Below, piece after piece: positions 5,038 through 14,758 of a stretch of DNA of 64,000 nucleotides. The position numbers and the translations under genes are program-made. Source of the stretch: Allomyces arbusculus (Eukaryota; Blastocladiomycota; Blastocladiomycetes; Blastocladiales; Blastocladiaceae); contig JADHYV010000004.1 of the NCBI GenBank assembly GCA_027604705.1, positions 372,001 through 436,000 of the forward strand, in the 5' to 3' direction. The notes beneath the pieces are model-generated. The model was not told the origin of the DNA, did not search any database, and saw nothing but the letters and a program-made list of their open reading frames with translations. Position 1 is the first letter of the stretch; the number at the start of each line of letters is the position of its first letter.

Positions 5038-8000
5038 GTGTCGAAACTTCATGGCAGTTCACGCCAGCGCGACCGACCGACCGGCCGACCGACACGCGCT
5101 TGCGCTCCTGCTCCTCTGCAGACTGTCGCCACCAACTCAACCACCGTTGCCAACGCCGCGCTCGTCGATCCTGCGCGCCCGCACGCCGCTGCAACGTCGT
5201 CGCCAACTACACTTTCCGCCGCGACCGCGCCGCCCCGCCGCGCGCGGCCACTCGCCACCGTGTCGTCGCCACCGCCCTCCCCGTCAGCCAAGCCGTCGCG
5301 CCTGAGACGGCTCGCGACGCGCGTCTTGCACCCGCGCTCCAAGCACACAAAGCAGCAGAAGCAGCGTAAGCGCACCGTCTCGTTTAACAACGTGCGCCCG
5401 GCCGCCGCGAGAGATCATCGCGTCGCCGACTCGGAATCGGTGCTGGTGCCGGTGCCACATCTTGCCGCTGCCGCCGAGCCCGAAAACCGTGTCGATCACG
5501 ATCAAGAGATCATGCCCGCGACCCCCAGCACCATCAGCACGTCGGCCAGCATGACCACGGCACTGACCACGGTGCCGCCACCTGCGCCGGGGAGCGCCGC
5601 CGCGCTCGACGACACGGTCCAGTCATTCCGTTTACTCGAGGCGCTGCGCACCGGGGATCTCGCCACGCTCAAGTCCCTGCCGGCGCCGCTCACGTTGCAC
5701 GCTGACCTGCGCGCCAAGTTTGGGTCCCCACTACATCTGGCCGTGGCCATGGCGCCGTTGCGCGTCGTCGATTGGATGCTCGCCACGGCGACACCCGCGC
5801 AAATCAATGCCGCCCACCCGTTTTCGGGGGAGACGCCGTTGCATGTGGCTGCGCGCGCTGCGCGACTTGACGTGGTCGAGCGACTGTTGGCGGTGCCATG
5901 CATCAATGACGGAGTGCGCGACGCAAATGGGAGCCGTGCGCTCGATGTGGCTCGTGTGGATACTGTCCGGCAAGTGCTCGCTGACGCGCAGGCTGCGTTT
6001 GTCGCGACGGCAACGGCCAGGATGCACGCTCTTGCTCGCGGCGACGCGGACTCGATTGCCGGGACCAACAGCGACGACGCGCCTGTCCGCGCAGCCAGCT
6101 CGGCCGAGGTCCTGCCCGACGTGATTGGGAGCGATCGCGACAGCGTACACTCGCGTGCTGACCCAACGTCGGTCGCGGCACTCGCGTCGGCCTCATCCGC
6201 TACGCTTCTTCCAGCCGCCAACAACGAGTCGATCAACAAGCCAGCGCTGCTAGCGGCGCTGCAGCAACTGTTCCGTGACCCGCGTGCCGCGGCACTGCTC
6301 GATATCAACCACCGCGATCCGAGTTCGGGTGCGACCGTCTTGCACGAGGCTGCGCGCCGTGGCGACGCGGCCATGGTCAAGTGGCTGCTGACGGACCGCC
6401 GCGCTGATCCGCTCGTGCGCGACCGCAAGGTACTTTCCTAGATCGCCCTGATCCGTTTCGACACATTTTGATCCCGGGACTGATCGACCATCCGGATAGG
6501 GCAAGTTCTTTTACGAAATCTCCAAGGACGATCACATCAAGGCGCTCTTCAAGGAATTTGTGCGCTCGACCCCGCTTACCACGGCCGCACCCGACCAGCT
6601 CCCGCAGCACCAAGGGTCGCTGCTCAAATGGACCAACTACGCGTCCGGGTACAAGGCGCGGTGGTTTGTGCTCGAGGACGGGATCCTATCCTACTACAAG
6701 CACCAGGACGACGTGCCCAACGCGTGCCGCGGGTCGATTCACTTGAAAATCGCGTCGCTCTGGCTCGACACGTCCGACCACCACCGGTTCGATATTATTG
6801 GCAAGGGGTCCGTCCGGTACCATTTGCGCGCCGACCACGTCGTTGAGGCCAAACGATGGGTGCACGTCATTTCGCAGTCGAAGCGGCTCCTGCAGGACCA
6901 GGACAAGGACGCGCGCCGCCGCCGGCAGCAGTCCGGGGCCGCTGTGCCGGCGTCGGCGGTCGCGCCGGAGGCGGCTGTCGCGCTCGAGGCCACGCCCAGC
7001 ACCGAGGCCCTGCCTGTCCCCGACGCGGCCGACGCCGTGTCGCTCCCCTCGTCGGGGTTGCCGCACGCCGTCTCAGCATCCGACTCGCTCGCGCCTCCCA
7101 CGACCGGCGCGCCGCTCCCGCGCAACCGCAGCGGGTCTGTGGCGTCGCTCGGGATCCTCGACGACGACGCGCCGATGCCCGCGCGCGAAACGCTAACCAT
7201 GACCGTGCACGCGCTACACGCGCAGCTCGACTTGCAGGCGGCGGTCATTGCCGGGCTCGTCTCCGCTGCGACTTCGGGTGCGAACGACGCCGACGCGCTC
7301 GCTAAGACGGTCACCTCGACGGCGCCTGTGCTGAACATGGCCGCCGCGACGCTACACAACTTGGTCGACGACTTGGCGCGGCTCGCAGACGACCGCGACC
7401 GGCACTGGCAACGGCGGTTTGATGCGGAATCGGAACGCAAGACTGTGTATGAGGAGGCGCTAGCCAATTTGGCGCGCGAGTACCAGACGGTCGAGGCCGA
7501 GGCGCGCGATATGGCCGATACGTTGCGCCGCACGCAGCGGCATATGATGCGGCAGCGGACCGTCACGGGGATGACGATCACGCCCGCGCGGGTTGCCGAG
7601 CAAAGTGCGGCTGCCGAGAGTAGCGCCGCGGCGAGTGTCGTCGCGCCCGAGTCGCCCGACGAGGAGGAGCAGGAACGTGCGGCGGCCGCGGAGCAGGTGG
7701 TCGCGACGGTCTTGCCCGAGGCCGTGTCCGCCGTCGCGGCCCCACAGGACGTGGGCACGCCGCTCGACATGGATGCCGGATGGTTGAGTCCCGACGAGGA
7801 CGAGGATACGACCGAGGACGATGATGACGAGTTCTTTGATGCTGTCGACGAAGAGGACGAGGCGCACGTGGCCGCACTCACGGCATCGATCACGAGCCCG
7901 GCACCGGCGCCCGCCGAACCCGCGGTCCTCGAACCCGCGACGGCGGCCGAGGAGACGGCGCTGGTCCCGTCGCGCCCGCGGTCGCCGTCCCCCGCACGCG

Positions 8001-9470
8001 CACCGTTGCCGCTGATTTCCGAGTCGTTGCCGGGGTACGAGGACGAGACCTACTCGTTTGTCGCGTCGTTGCGCGACAACCTGCCCGTCGACCACGCTTT
8101 GCTCAAGAACGAAGTGTCGCTGTGGTCGGTGCTCAAGAACGCGATCGGCAAGGACTTGTCGCGCATCACGTTGCCCGTCTACTTCAACGAGCCGATCTCT
8201 ATGCTGCAGCGGCTGTGCGAGGAAATCGAGTACTCGCAATTGCTCGACTTGGCGTGGAAGCGCGACCGGTCGGACGAGCGGCTGCTGCTCGTCACGGCGT
8301 TTGCCATGAGCAGTTATGCGTCGACGGTCGGGCGTGCGGGCAAGCCGTTTAACCCGCTGCTCGGCGAGACGTACGAGTATGTGCGTAAAGACCGCGGGTT
8401 CCGGTACGTGTCCGAACAAGTCTCGCACCATCCGCCGATCTCGGCGTGTTTCTGCGAGTCCGACCGGTACCAATTTTACGGCGAGGTGAATGTCAAGAAC
8501 CGGTTCTGGGGGAAATCGCTCGAAGTGATGCCGCAGGGCGTGTGCCATGTGGTCTTGAAGCGCGGGCACGTCGGCGAGCAGGACGAGCATTTCACGTGGC
8601 GTAAAGTGACGACCTCGGTCAACAACTTGATTGTCGGCACGCTCTGGCTCGATAATTACGGCGACTTGGAAATGGTCAACCACGCGACCAAGGAAAAGGT
8701 CGTGCTCACGTTCAAGCCGACCGGATGGCGCAACAAGGACCGGTGCGTCGTCGAGGGCAAGCTGTTTGATGCCAAGGGCAAGGCGACGTGGTCGTTGTGG
8801 GGGACCTGGGACGAGAAGCTGTGCTGCAAGTCGCTCACAGGCGACGGGCGCACGTTCTCGCTGAGTAACCCGAATGCCGGTGCGGCCGCGGCAGCAGCAA
8901 TGCAGCAGCGTGCCATGTCGCCGTCGATGACCATGGCGGTGCCGACGTCGCCGACGACCGAGGAGGACAAGTCGGTCTCGGCCGCGGCACCGGCGGGCGC
9001 AAAGAAGTCGGGCAACATTACGCTGTGGCGGCGGTACGTGTTCATTGCTTTCTCTGTATGTTTTTCGACGTTGTCCACCCACTGATCTTAATGATGCTCT
9101 TCGCTCTTCTAGCTTCAACTCGCCCATTTCCGCGTCCAACTTCCACCTCACCCCCTTCGCCATGTCGCTCAACCAAATGACGCCAACCCTCGCGCAACAC
9201 CTGTGCCCGACCGACTCCCGTTTGCGACCAGACCAGCGTGCAATGGAGGAGGGCCGGTACGACGACGCGGCGTTTGAAAAGAACCGGCTCGAGGAAAAGC
9301 AGCGCGCCGCGCGCAAGGTGCGCGAGCAGTCGGGCGCGGGCCACGCGCAACCGCGGTGGTTTGTGCGCGACTATGACCCGGACTCACGCGACGAGTATTG
9401 GCGGTTCACGCACGAGTACTGGGCGTGCCGCGCCAAGGGCGAGTGGCCGGGTGTGCCGGATATCTTTTGA
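5038..9470 (+). CDS. Oxysterol-binding protein with ankyrin repeats, PH domain, FFAT-like motif and ORD (Osh1/OSBP type)
   Basis: Sterol/PI4P exchange protein acting at ER-Golgi or ER-vacuole contact sites. Exons are 5038-6429, 6500-9033 and 9113-9470 (introns GTACTT..TAG and GTACGT..TAG); the spliced product is 1,427 residues. Order: basic Ser/Pro-rich N-terminus; ankyrin repeats (about 195-464, e.g. SGETPLHVAARAARLDVVER); a PH domain (about 504-600, starting GSLLKWTNYASGYKARWFV); a disordered acidic linker with EFFDAVDEEDE near residue 908, close to the VAP-binding FFAT consensus EFFDAxE; and the OSBP-related domain from about 1,000 to the end, with the fingerprint EQVSHHPP near 1,102. Ankyrin+PH+ORD matches yeast Osh1/Osh2. 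The start is uncertain: an ATG at 5512 would remove a poorly conserved 158-residue leader. A decayed partial copy lies just downstream. Confidence 0.93.
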
Positions 9471-10169
9471 GTGTGTGCCGGTCGTCGAGTTGCGTCGAGC
9501 GAAGGCGCGGCGGCGCAGTGGGGGATCGTGGATGGGTGGGTCCCGACGTTGGCGGCTTGTTGGATTCAGACAAGTAGAGATTTGTTTTTTTCCCCCGCGG
9601 TTTCTCGTGAGTGATCTTTGCGACTCATCGTCGTCGAGACATGGCGCAGGCTTGTTGTCGCACCTGCATTCTAATGGCCGTTCGGTCGTTTGGTCCAGGC
9701 ATGGATGGCTTCCTGCCCGACGACGACACGTAAAGAACCAACCTCGGCCACCATCGACTCACACTAGTCGCCCTCACGGTTGCCCCCACTAGCGCGTGGC
9801 CGGCCGACCGCCGCTCCTCGTCTTCTGGCCCCGCACGCCGTACCCAAGCGATCAGCTCAACCCGCTCGTCCCGCTCGTCCGAACGTCCGAACGTCCGAAC
9901 TTCCTGCGTGCCTCCTTGATTTTCTGGAGATACGTGACATGTGCTCGTGTGTGCGAGCGATAATTTGTTGTCTCACCAGTGTACCTGTTGCCGTTTACGT
10001 AGCCAGCAAACAGGACCAAGAGAAGCGACTCGATGCCGACCTCGAGAGCGTGACGCAAGAGCGAAGGCTCGTCCTCGCGGTCGACCGTCTCGAGATCGTG
10101 CGAGTACGTGAGCTGCGCGACCGTCACGCACGTCTTTGAGGCCGGTTCTGCTGCACGACGCGCTTGTGA
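9471..10169. other. Spacer between OSBP gene and its decayed copy
   Basis: About 700 bp. The first ~105 bp are the 3' flank of the intact gene and match the 3' flank of the decayed copy, both ending in the shared stretch CGGCTTGTTGGATTCAGACA. A GAACGTCC-type short tandem repeat sits near 9880-9900. A minus-strand open frame at 9852-10127 is listed separately. Nothing else was recognised. Confidence 0.4.
9852..10127 (-). CDS. Unrecognised 91-residue open frame, possible exon or gene fragment
   Basis: Minus-strand frame beginning MTVAQLTYSHDLETVDRED, followed by a plausible hydrophobic helix ESLLLVLFAGYV (about residues 29-41). Unlike most spurious frames in this GC-rich sequence, its first 50 residues have a natural-looking composition. 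No family was recognised. It has internal GT donors (for example the GTACAC or GTGAGA just after the helix), so it could be one exon of a gene or a leftover fragment. It lies between the OSBP gene and its pseudogene. Kept only as a weak candidate. Confidence 0.15.
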   Translation of the reverse strand: MTVAQLTYSHDLETVDREDEPSLLRHALEVGIESLLLVLFAGYVNGNRYTGETTNYRSHTRAHVTYLQKIKEARRKFGRSDVRTSGTSGLS

Positions 10170-10905
10170 ATTCCGTCTCGTTCAACAACGCGCTCCCCGT
10201 CGGCGCGAGAGACCATCACGACTTGGTGCTGCCAGTGCCACACCTGGCTACTGCCGTCGTCGAGCCCGACTTCGGAAACCGTGTCGATCACGATCAAGGA
10301 ATTGTGCCTGTGACACAGCACCATCAGCACACCGGCCAGCATGGCCACGGCACTGAACACGGTCTCATCACCCGCTCCACCAGGCAGCGCTGCCGCGCTC
10401 GACGACACGGCCGGCTGCTCGAGGCGCAGCACAGCGGGGATCTCGCCACGCTCAAGTCCCTGCTGGCGCCACTCACGCTGCACGCCGATCTATACGCCAA
10501 GTTTGGGTCCCATTGCACCTGGCCGCGGCCATGGCGCCGTTTGTCATTGAGTGGATGCTGCCGACGACGATGCCCGCACAAATTATTACCGCGCCCCCAT
10601 TCTCGGGCGAGACGTCGCTGCACGTGGCTGCGCGCGCCGGACGACTGGACGCGGGCGAGCGACTGCTCGCGGTGCATGCATCCATGGCAGCGCGCGTGAT
10701 TACAACCTGGATTCGCACGACGAGTATTGGCAGTTCAAGCAAGAGGATTGGGCGTACTGCGCCAAGGGCGTGTGGCCGGGCGTGCTGGATGTTGTTTGAA
10801 GTGAGTGCCAGCCAGTCGGGAAGGGTCAGCCCAGAGGCACAGTGTGGGATCACGGTTGGTTCGACCCCCTTGGCGGCTTGTTGGATTCAGACAAGTAAAT
10901 GCTGG
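10170..10905 (+). pseudogene. Truncated tandem copy of the oxysterol-binding gene
   Basis: DNA from about 10170 matches the intact gene from about 5378: CCGTCTCGTT, then the ankyrin-region sequence around LATLKSLLAPLTLHADL. Near 10700 it jumps to sequence matching 9363 onward (the last 36 codons, RDYNLDSHDEYWQF versus RDYDPDSRDEYWRF) and continues into the matching 3' flank. The copy therefore lacks the equivalent of roughly 5923-9362: the remaining ankyrins, the PH domain and almost all of the ORD. Small insertions and deletions break the frame of what is left. In the intact gene the two join points carry the same 9-mer GTGCGCGAC (5914-5922 and 9363-9371), which suggests deletion between short direct repeats. 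No function is expected. Confidence 0.88.
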
Positions 10906-11689: not shown

Positions 11690-14600
11690 TTAGAAGCCGA
11701 GGTGCTGCTGCTGAGCCTGCGACTGGAACGCCGAGACGTCAACGTGATGGCCCGACACGTCCACACCCTGGAACTGCGACTGAGCCTGCGAGATGAACGC
11801 GTCGGCGTTGTGGCCGCCCGACACATCAGCCGACTGCCACTGGCTCTGAGCCTGGGAAACAAAGGCATCAGCGTTGTGCCCGCCCGAAACGTCGGCCCAC
11901 TGCGACTGCGACTGCGCCTGCTGCACAAACGCGTCTGCGCCGTGACCACCCGAGACGCCGGCCGATTGCCACTGCGATTGCGCCTGCTGGACAAACGCGT
12001 CCGTGTTGTGCGCGCCCGACACGTCGACCGACTGCCACTGGCTCTGGGCCTGGTTGGCGTGAGCCGATGCGCCATGGTCGCCGAGGTTCAGCTGCTGGAA
12101 TTGCGACTGGAACTGCGACAGATCAGCGCCGCCGTGGCCCGACGCGTCGACATGCTGGCCTTGCCATTGACTCTGCGAAGCCGAACTGTGACCGGCATCC
12201 ACCTGCTGCGACTGGTACTGGCTCTGCTGGGCCGTCGTCGAGCCGTGACCGGCATCCACCTGCTGCCACTGGCTCTGGCTCTGCGATGCCGAGCCATGAC
12301 CAGCATCGACCTGTTGCGACTGGTACTGGCTCTGTTGAGCGGTCGTTGAGCCGTGACCCGAGGTCGAAACCGACTGCGCCTGCGATTGCGCCTGCGTTGC
12401 CGTCGCCGAGCCATGGCCGGCCGCGTCAACGTGCTGCGCTTGCCACTGGCTCTGCGAAGCATTGGCCGAGCCGTGCGCGTCAATGTTCTGCGACTGGTAC
12501 TGCGACTGCGACTGCGAAGCCGTGGTGGTGGCGTGGCCCGAAGTCGTGGCCGACTGCGTCTGCGCCTGCGTTTGCGTCACGGTCGAGCCGCCAAAGTCGA
12601 TCGGGTGGCAGTCGGGCGCGTGCGTCGCCGAGGTGGTGCCGGTGGCCGTCGAGTGGCCCGACGACGTGTTGGCGTGCGTCGTCGTGGTGGCACCGTGCCA
12701 CTGGCCGTCGTCGTACTTCGTGTTGCCGCCCTCTATCAAAACACCAGAACGTCAGTTGACAGGTGCCACGATCACAAACAGGCTGAACTGGGCGTACGAA
12801 CCATATTTGCCTGGTGCCCACTGGCCGTTGTCGTAACCAGTGTTACCGCCCTCTATCAAGACACCAGAACGTTAGTTGACAGGTGCCACGATCACAAACA
12901 AGCTGAATTGAGCGTACGAACCATATTTGCCAGGGGCCCACTGGCCGTTGTCGTACGTCGTGTGCGTCGTGGTCGAGCCGCTCTGCGCGCCCGACGACGT
13001 GGTCGCGCCGCCCGTCGAGGTGGTCGCGCCCGAGGAGGTGTTGGCGTGCGAGGTCGTGGTCGAGCCGTGGTACTGGCCGTTGTCGTAGCCGGTGTTGCCG
13101 CCCTCTATTAAATCACCAGAACGTCAGTTGACACACGATCACAAACAAACTGAACTGGGCGTACGAACCATATTTGCCAGGGGCCCACTGGCCGTTGTCG
13201 TAACCAGTCTTGCCACCCTCTATCAAATCACCAGAACGTCAGTTGACAGGTGCCACGATCACAAACAGGCTGAACTGGGCGTACGAACCGTATTGACCCG
13301 GATGCCACGAGCCGTCATTGTAGGTCGTAGTCGTCGGCGCGTGCGTGGCCGAGGTGGTGCCCGTCGCGGTCGAATGGCCCGCATCGTGCGACGAGGTGGT
13401 GGTGGTCGTCTGCGACTGCGTCTGGCCCTGCGTAGCCGTCGTGTTCGAGCCCGAGGTGGTGGTGGTAGACTGGTACTGCCCTTGGCTCTGGCTGGCGTGA
13501 GCGTCGCCGCCCGAAACATGCGTCGACTGGCTCTGGCCCTGCGATTGCGTCACGTTGCCGCCGGTGCTCGACTGGTACTGCCCTTGGCTCTGGCTGGCGT
13601 GAGCGTCGCCGCCCGAAACATGCGTCGACTGGCTCTGGCCCTGCGATTGCGTCACGTTGCCGCCGGTGCTCGACTGGTACTGCCCTTGGCTCTGGCTGGC
13701 ATGCGCGTCGCCGCCCGAAACGTGCGTCGACTGGCTCTGGCCCTGCGATTGCGTCACGTTGCCACCAGTGCTCGACTGGTACTGCCCTTGGCTCTGGCTA
13801 GCATGCGCGTCGCCGCCCGAAACGTGCGTCGACTGGCTCTGCGACTGCGACTGGCTGGCGTTGCTGCCCGACTGGGCCTGCGACTGGTACTGCGACTGCG
13901 AGGCCGAGTGCGCGTCACCCGACTGGTACTGCCCCTGCGACTGCGACTGCGAGGCGTTGCCGCCCGACTGGGACTGCGACTGGTACTGGCTCTGCGAAGC
14001 CGAGTGCGCGTCGCCCGACTGGTACTGCCCCTGCGACTGCGACTGCGAGGCGTTGCCGCCCGACTGGGCCTGCGACTGGTACTGCGACTGCGAGGCCGAG
14101 TGCGCGTCACCCGACTGGTACTGCCCCTGCGACTGNNNNNNNNNNNNNNNNNNNNNNNNNNNNNNNNNNNNNNNNNNNNNNNNNNNNNNNNNNNNNNNNN
14201 NNNNNNNNNNNNNNNNNNNNNNNNNNNNNNNNNTGCGACTGGCTGGCGTTGCCGCCCGACTGGGCCTGCGACTGGTACTGCGACTGCGAGGCCGAGTGCG
14301 CGTCACCGGACTGGTACTGGCTCTGCGACTGCGCCTGCGACGAGTTGCTGCCCGACTGGTACTGCGACTGGTACTGGCTCTGCGAAGCCGAGTGCGCGTC
14401 GCTCGACGACTGCTGGTACTGCGACTGCGACTGCGACTGCGAGCCGGAGGTGCTGGATTGGTACTGCGACTGCGATTGCGCCTGCGTCGAGTGCGAGCCC
14501 GAACTCGATTGGCTCTGGTACTGGGACTGGCTCTGGCTCGCGTTCGAGCCTGTCTGCCACTGCGACTGCGATTGGTACTGCTAAAAAAAAGCCGAATGGT

Positions 14601-14758
14601 GGAGTGCGGTGGACGCGTTAGAGATGCGGTTGATGAACGGTGATGGTGGGGGCGCGACGCGACGCGACGCGACGCGGCGCGCTGGCGGTGGAGAAGGTTG
14701 AGCGGAGCGCGCCACGCTGCTGAACGCAAGGGAGTAGGACGCGTACCGAAGCGTTCAT
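11690..14758 (-). CDS. Gln/Ser-rich tandem-repeat protein of unknown function
   Basis: Proposed minus-strand exons: 14758-14747 (MNAS), 14580-13289 (contains the assembly gap), 13219-13169, 13104-12922, 12852-12802 and 12732-11690. The frame is consistent across all five introns if the gap is really 100 bp, giving 877 residues. The product is almost entirely repeats: SQSQYQSQ-type tracts with GDAHSAS or GGNAS spacers; 34-residue units containing THVSGGDAHASQSQGQYQSS; QVDAGHGS units; and C-terminal ~22-residue units like DVSGGHNADAFVSQAQSQWQ. There is no signal peptide, membrane segment or known domain. The composition is prion-like or low-complexity. A TATAAAAT lies about 75 bp upstream of the ATG. 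The opposite strand is also open for long stretches, but only the minus strand has spliceable introns with matching phases. The start exon (only 12 coding bases) is the weakest part of the model. Confidence 0.7.
12733..13288 (-). repeat. Amplified mini-exon plus intron module (four near-identical introns)
   Basis: Four introns at 13288-13220, 13168-13105, 12921-12853 and 12801-12733 are nearly identical. Each has donor GTTCGTACGCC, a GTCAACTGAC branch-site-like stretch and acceptor ending ATAG. Three are 69 nt; the second is 64 nt through a 5-nt deletion. All are phase 1 and are followed by an exon starting with EGGNTGYDNG or EGGKTGYDNG; two of these exons are exactly 51 nt, giving a 120-bp exon+intron unit. 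All four introns contain in-frame stops, so retention would truncate the protein. Confidence 0.85.
13471..13840 (-). repeat. 102-bp coding tandem repeat, about 3.6 copies
   Basis: The landmark TGGTACTGCCCTTGGCTCTG recurs at 13471, 13573, 13675 and 13777, exactly 102 bp apart. Each unit encodes 34 residues with VSGGDAHASQSQGQYQSS and TGGNVTQSQGQS parts. Units differ at only a few bases, so the array is recent or kept uniform by conversion. Confidence 0.9.
13856..14330 (-). repeat. 96-bp coding tandem repeat interrupted by the assembly gap
   Basis: A second unit type (about 32 residues: SQSQGQYQSGDAHSASQSQY with QSGGNA spacers) has landmarks at 13924, 14020 and 14116, 96 bp apart. It enters the run of Ns at 14136 and resumes in the same unit type after 14233. 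Copy number cannot be counted. Confidence 0.85.
14136..14233. other. Assembly gap (98 Ns) inside tandem repeat
   Basis: A run of 98 undetermined bases. The Gln/Ser reading frame before and after it is out of register by two bases. The true length should be 1 mod 3 (for example 100), or the number of Ns is arbitrary. Such a gap is expected where short reads cannot span identical repeats, so the true array may be much longer. Confidence 0.95.

Follow-up and report, generated by a model that had tools for sequence, protein, structure and literature searches.

Four nearly identical introns interrupt the tandem repeats of one predicted gene, P3, and its sister gene P4 carries just as many repeats with none of these introns. 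The reading that we favour, with a probability of about 0.58, is that an intron arrived in P3 after P4 had split off and spread among repeats that were already there, by gene conversion and/or unequal exchange. P3 lies in the window analysed here, a stretch of 64,000 nt (contig JADHYV010000004.1:372,001-436,000) with a G+C content of 61.6%, from a genome of 25.9 Mb in 197 contigs. Coordinates below are positions within this window, and the predicted gene is organized as follows.

11690..14758, minus strand: P3, the whole predicted gene for a Q/S-rich repeat protein, six exons; ATG at 14758, stop at 11692-11690.
14747..14758, minus strand: exon 1 (MNAS, 12 nt); the short first exon and the GTACG donor are common to P1-P4.
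14581..14746, minus strand: intron 1, 166 nt, phase 0; common to P1-P4, its sequence unrelated to introns A-D.
13289..14580, minus strand: exon 2, with repeat R1 (YNDGSWHPGQY) at its 3' end; from translation.
13220..13288, minus strand: intron A, 69 nt; GT-AG, from sequence comparison.
13169..13219, minus strand: mini-exon R2, 51 nt, EGGKTGYDNGQWAPGKY; from translation.
13105..13168, minus strand: intron B, 64 nt, with a 5-nt deletion; GT-AG, from sequence comparison.
12922..13104, minus strand: 183-nt exon with R3, a Thr/Ser linker and R4, separating introns B and C; from translation.
12853..12921, minus strand: intron C, 69 nt, branch-like motif CTAAC; GT-AG, from sequence comparison.
12802..12852, minus strand: mini-exon R5, 51 nt, EGGNTGYDNGQWAPGKY; from translation.
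12733..12801, minus strand: intron D, 69 nt, one difference from A; GT-AG, from sequence comparison.
11690..12732, minus strand: last exon, beginning with R6 (EGGNTKYDDGQWHG) and continuing into the C-terminal Q/S repeats of the family; from translation and paralog comparison.

The frame stays open from exon 1 to exon 6, with separate translation on either side of an N gap in exon 2. This gap (98 nt, 14136-14233) sits within another repeat array, as does one in a second gene of the family (stretch L014, 4209-4371), and in both genes the gaps are probably unresolved repeats.

A first-pass annotation had drawn attention to four near-identical introns at 12733-13288, and its coordinates are exact (minus strand), as are the lengths of 69, 64, 69 and 69 nt. 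All four copies start with GTTCGT and end with ATAG. They differ pairwise by one to seven substitutions (A-D 1/69, A-B 3/64, B-D 4/64, C-D 5/69, A-C 6/69 and B-C 7/64), in addition to the deletion in B; of the eight columns with substitutions, seven show C/T or G/A. The joined reading frame agrees with the annotated phase 1 for every copy, the Glu codon of GKY^EGG being split after its first base (GQY precedes A), and leaving any one of them unspliced would introduce an in-frame stop. Two details had been drawn too uniformly. Upstream of the acceptor, A, B and D have the branch-like motif CTGAC, as described, but C has CTAAC, a substitution that keeps both the branch-like motif and the in-frame stop; and 17-residue mini-exons were placed between all introns, which is true of R2 and R5, but not of the interval between B and C. 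Tandem Repeats Finder reports a period of 120 nt with 4.9 copies, so that the four-intron pattern is not chance.

A-D are read as introns because the paralogs carry the repeat uninterrupted and because size and signals are like those of host introns. For comparison, introns inferred in chitin synthase genes by alignment of paralogs from this genome (four junctions tried, best-scoring join taken) measure 65, 76, 73 and 98 nt, with the donors GTACGC, GTGCGC, GTACGC and GTACGT, a CTAAC or CTGAC motif and a YAG acceptor each; further introns are likely in these loci. The first introns of P1-P4 have GTACGC or GTACGT as donor, and GTTCGT is thus absent from all eight other introns examined. In their ends and branch motif A-D look like canonical spliceosomal (U2-type) introns, with an exact donor hexamer not among the host examples, and splicing of A-D is predicted on these grounds. 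Without A-D, P3 reads as the same kind of repeat protein as its intronless paralogs. That A-D are not introns at all, or are an assembly artefact, appears extremely improbable: the unlike donor and the presence of the N gap in another array of the same gene would speak for it, however the copies carry substitutions, a deletion and distinct flanks, their removal yields a protein that is uninterrupted in the paralogs, and the remaining splice signals agree with host introns. Since the exons between the introns are 51 and 183 nt long, multiples of three, and the introns are in phase 1, skipping of units is predicted to keep the frame and is possible in principle.

The intron sequence appears to be confined to P3. 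A genome search with the 69-nt intron, proposed in the first-pass annotation, returned only its four P3 copies among the matches listed (25.9 Mb, E <= 10). Two core patterns with up to three mismatches gave 4 and 4 matches genome-wide, all in P3 among the matches listed, compared to 2 and 0 for reversed control patterns. The claim that one intron had recently multiplied within a repeat protein is in line with these data. The claim that introns elsewhere in the window are unrelated to each other was checked solely by window self-BLAST (E <= 1e-3); outside P3 this revealed two further pairs of repeats, and neither pair was intron A-D. Intron 1 shares a BLAST match of just 7 nt with intron A, and with the four copies masked, BLAST of intron A gave nothing longer than 7-8 nt within the gene or its intron 1, the best match in the window being 11 nt. 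Families of introners have copies spread over many genes. We therefore considered an introner-like family and rejected it: near-identical copies in other genes were not found, four copies in one gene being all among the matches listed. Independent insertion at every site, by an introner-like element or by repeated reverse splicing, is very improbable. The near-identity of the copies and the abruptness with which similarity falls at A's 5' splice site would fit such events, but the confinement to P3 disfavours the introner-like version, and all four copies occupy one and the same codon boundary within homologous repeats, an indication that homology guided the copying.

The family to which P3 belongs is large, with at least 42 stretches on 10 contigs matching the C-terminus of P3. 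Nine further members were translated and have one to three DDGSW/DDGSY motifs each in unbroken frames. A Pfam search (E <= 0.01) assigned no family to the part of P4 spanning the repeats and the C-terminus, and relatives of the P4 repeat region were not confirmed among 159 pattern stretches in viral_contigs or 596 in genome_contigs, neither of which is a fungal collection. In the same genome, a flagellar radial spoke family has one match (E = 1e-85; 0 of 14 control genomes) and chitin synthase 2 has 39 matching stretches. The two families taken together suggest that the host is probably a flagellated (zoosporic) fungus. The chitin synthase family also matches four of the 14 control genomes, all bacteria, and its weaker matches may be other glycosyltransferases; the 13 loci at E <= 1e-100 look like a large set. 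Elsewhere in the window, 10273-10686 resembles 5481-5908 (80% identity), which lies within the frame just upstream of that of the oxysterol-binding protein, and 10705-10897 resembles 9376-9576 (77%). Stops occur in all three plus-strand frames of 10273-10686 and 10705-10897, and together they look like a decayed partial copy.

Three paralogs lie on the same contig as P3, P1 at ~357-359 kb, P2 at ~361-362 kb and P4 at ~473-477 kb in contig coordinates. A motif search, with a motif composed after the sequences had been seen, located 11 repeat junctions across P1-P4. Four are in P3, all with introns, and seven in the paralogs (one in P1, two in P2, four in P4), where all seven are uninterrupted; EGG follows in five and PGD in two. 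Intron 1, in contrast, is kept in P1, P2 and P4 with 90, 139 and 115 nt (the P2 acceptor was picked by eye). The organization of P4 is like that of P3, with two blocks of three tryptophan-containing repeats and a Thr/Ser-rich linker, the last P4 repeat being shortened. Thus, P3 has extra introns without extra repeat units when six repeats are compared with the six of its sister; P1 has fewer, and the number varies in the family (P1 two, P2 three, P3 and P4 six each), so that the equality of P3 and P4 could be a coincidence. The candidate intron shows the pattern by which intron transfer is recognized, namely one intron recurring at an equivalent position of homologous repeats and its absence from a close homolog.

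A tree places P3 and P4 as sisters, with a support of 0.982 in one run and 96/96 in another. It is built on 190 low-complexity C-terminal residues per protein from 13 family members, with P2 as a long, compositionally odd branch. Raw identities are near equal (P3-P4 99/161, P1-P4 118/193, P1-P3 96/163), and the sisterhood is therefore not obvious without a model. On this tree a single gain along the P3 branch would be the simplest reading, while ancestral introns would need more than one loss, and we infer gain rather than loss. The opposite view seems unlikely to us, namely that the introns are old and that P3 kept and homogenised them while P1, P2 and P4 lost them, for instance through 3'-biased recombination with a reverse transcript that spared intron 1. 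It has points in its favour: homogenisation within the gene would mask age, and in three paralogs just the 5'-most intron is found. The 5'-most intron alone remaining is a classical sign of intron loss via reverse transcripts. Such a history, however, requires more than one independent loss with P4 as the sister of P3. The nine further family members with unbroken frames point in the same direction, but they have no EGG repeat and so say little.

How the introns spread can be addressed by comparing them with their exonic flanks (34 nt upstream plus 35 nt downstream). All stretches compared are short, 33-69 nt, and sites were taken as independent. Introns A and D differ at 1/69 positions and their flanks at 19/69 (Fisher, P = 1.1e-5, six pairs tested), and the discrepancy is seen on both sides (upstream 12/34, P = 3.6e-6; downstream 7/35, P = 0.0019). 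A and B also differ significantly in this respect (intron 3/64, flanks 18/69, P = 7e-4), while the other four pairs have no significant intron/flank difference (P = 0.056 to 0.56). The 34 nt upstream of A are at 12/34 differences from each of the stretches before B, C and D, which differ mutually at 0-2/34 and are as alike as the introns; those of B and C are identical although their introns differ at 7/64 (not significant, P = 0.09). Hence, the initial description of the exons as near-identical as the introns holds upstream of B, C and D, but not upstream of A. Compared over 33 nt, the stretch before A differs from the four repeats of P4 at 9, 10, 7 and 11 positions and from the three other intron-preceding stretches of P3 at 12 each, while B equals C, D differs by 2 and the four P4 repeats differ mutually by 11-16. 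The exon end before A is thus closer to the P4 repeats than to its counterparts before B, C and D, and has the look of an older type of repeat, though its intron nearly equals that of D. The conflict between intron and exon similarity by which conversion tracts are recognized is thus apparent for A/D and A/B. Many of the flank differences between A and the others alter residues (YNDGSWHPGQY versus YDNGQWAPGKY), and selection on exon changes could add to the flank divergence.

The first-pass annotation had explained the introns by tandem duplication of an exon plus intron unit. In this scenario unequal crossing-over or slippage of a unit of about 120 nt, of the kind proposed for Cryptococcus CNN00420, made exons and introns together. 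Part of it stands: upstream of B, C and D the half-repeats match one another as closely as the introns do, and this exon portion was evidently copied together with the intron there. The 120-nt tandem period fits as well, as do the 5/51 differences between mini-exons R2 and R5, a rate about that of introns A versus C, and the A-C pair, with 6/69 differences in the intron and 3/35 in the downstream flank, is likewise in line with co-copying. As a full account, however, unit duplication is rather doubtful. If it alone had acted, P3 should have extra repeats compared to P4, but the sister has six repeats in two blocks without introns there, and the repeats do not appear to have arisen along with the introns. 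Furthermore, introns A and D are far closer than either flank, and the exon end before A stays nearer to the repeats of P4.

According to the reading that we prefer, arrival in P3 and spread among existing repeats, a 69-nt spliceosomal intron would have settled in a single repeat, at its GKY^EGG boundary, once P3 and P4 had split. Recombination between the existing tandem repeats of P3 would then have spread copies of it, so that four equivalent boundaries came to carry it. Some of the copied tracts would have taken the preceding half-repeat too (B, C, D), and at least one exchange would have homogenised the intron but not the flanks (A with D). Conversion is the means of spread that we infer, and near-identical introns could in turn favour more unequal exchange. 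There is room for a mixture of conversion and unit duplication, the comparisons being short and drawn from paralogs only. More tentatively, the intron alone may have spread, a 69-nt insertion being converted into diverged intronless repeats by tracts ending at or near the splice sites. If so, several introns were gained with protein and repeat number unchanged.

The means of intron gain are still disputed, as a review states (PMC3443670), and several known systems can be set beside P3. The nearest is Cryptococcus neoformans CNN00420, where identical or near-identical introns are described inside a coding repeat (Sharpton et al. 2008, PMC2395259). There, a longer repeat of ~107 nt spans the exon ends and the whole intron, its number differs between strains, and extra introns are explained by extra whole units; ESTs and resequencing are reported to have confirmed this (PMC2395259). 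It shares with P3 a tandem coding repeat in a fungal gene that contains near-identical introns. P3, in contrast, is known from sequence alone, has an intronless sister with an equal number of repeats and displays a conflict between intron and exon similarity. In Argiope MaSp2 dragline silk, lineage-specific introns delimit the repeat units and are homogenised within the gene (average 97.6%), some MaSp2 genes are reported without repetitive introns, and the authors propose that introns aid homogenisation (PMC9779670). MaSp2 is a spider silk with numerous exons, while P3, from a fungus-like genome, has four such introns and two mini-exons of 51 nt. Recombination that copies an intron into the same position of an intronless homolog is known as intron transfer between paralogs (PMC3443670). 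It acts between genes, whereas in P3 the exchange would be between repeats of one gene; the table of that review omits simple duplications of existing introns. Fungal introner-like elements are young, multiplied introns in several genes (PMC4457414), and the introns of P3 are likewise young and multiplied, but their sequence was found in one gene only. Repeats can also come to contain introns by yet another route, described for human UBC and related tandem-repeat genes. With the Cryptococcus and spider silk cases already published, the surprise is limited. Our comparison nevertheless suggests that repeat proteins may accumulate introns via the recombination that also keeps their repeats homogeneous, with no repeats added. 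P3 resembles its precedents CNN00420 and Argiope silk, and its useful feature is the intronless sister with equal repeat number: P4 apparently still shows the state before the introns arrived, which makes it possible to reconstruct how one intron became several.
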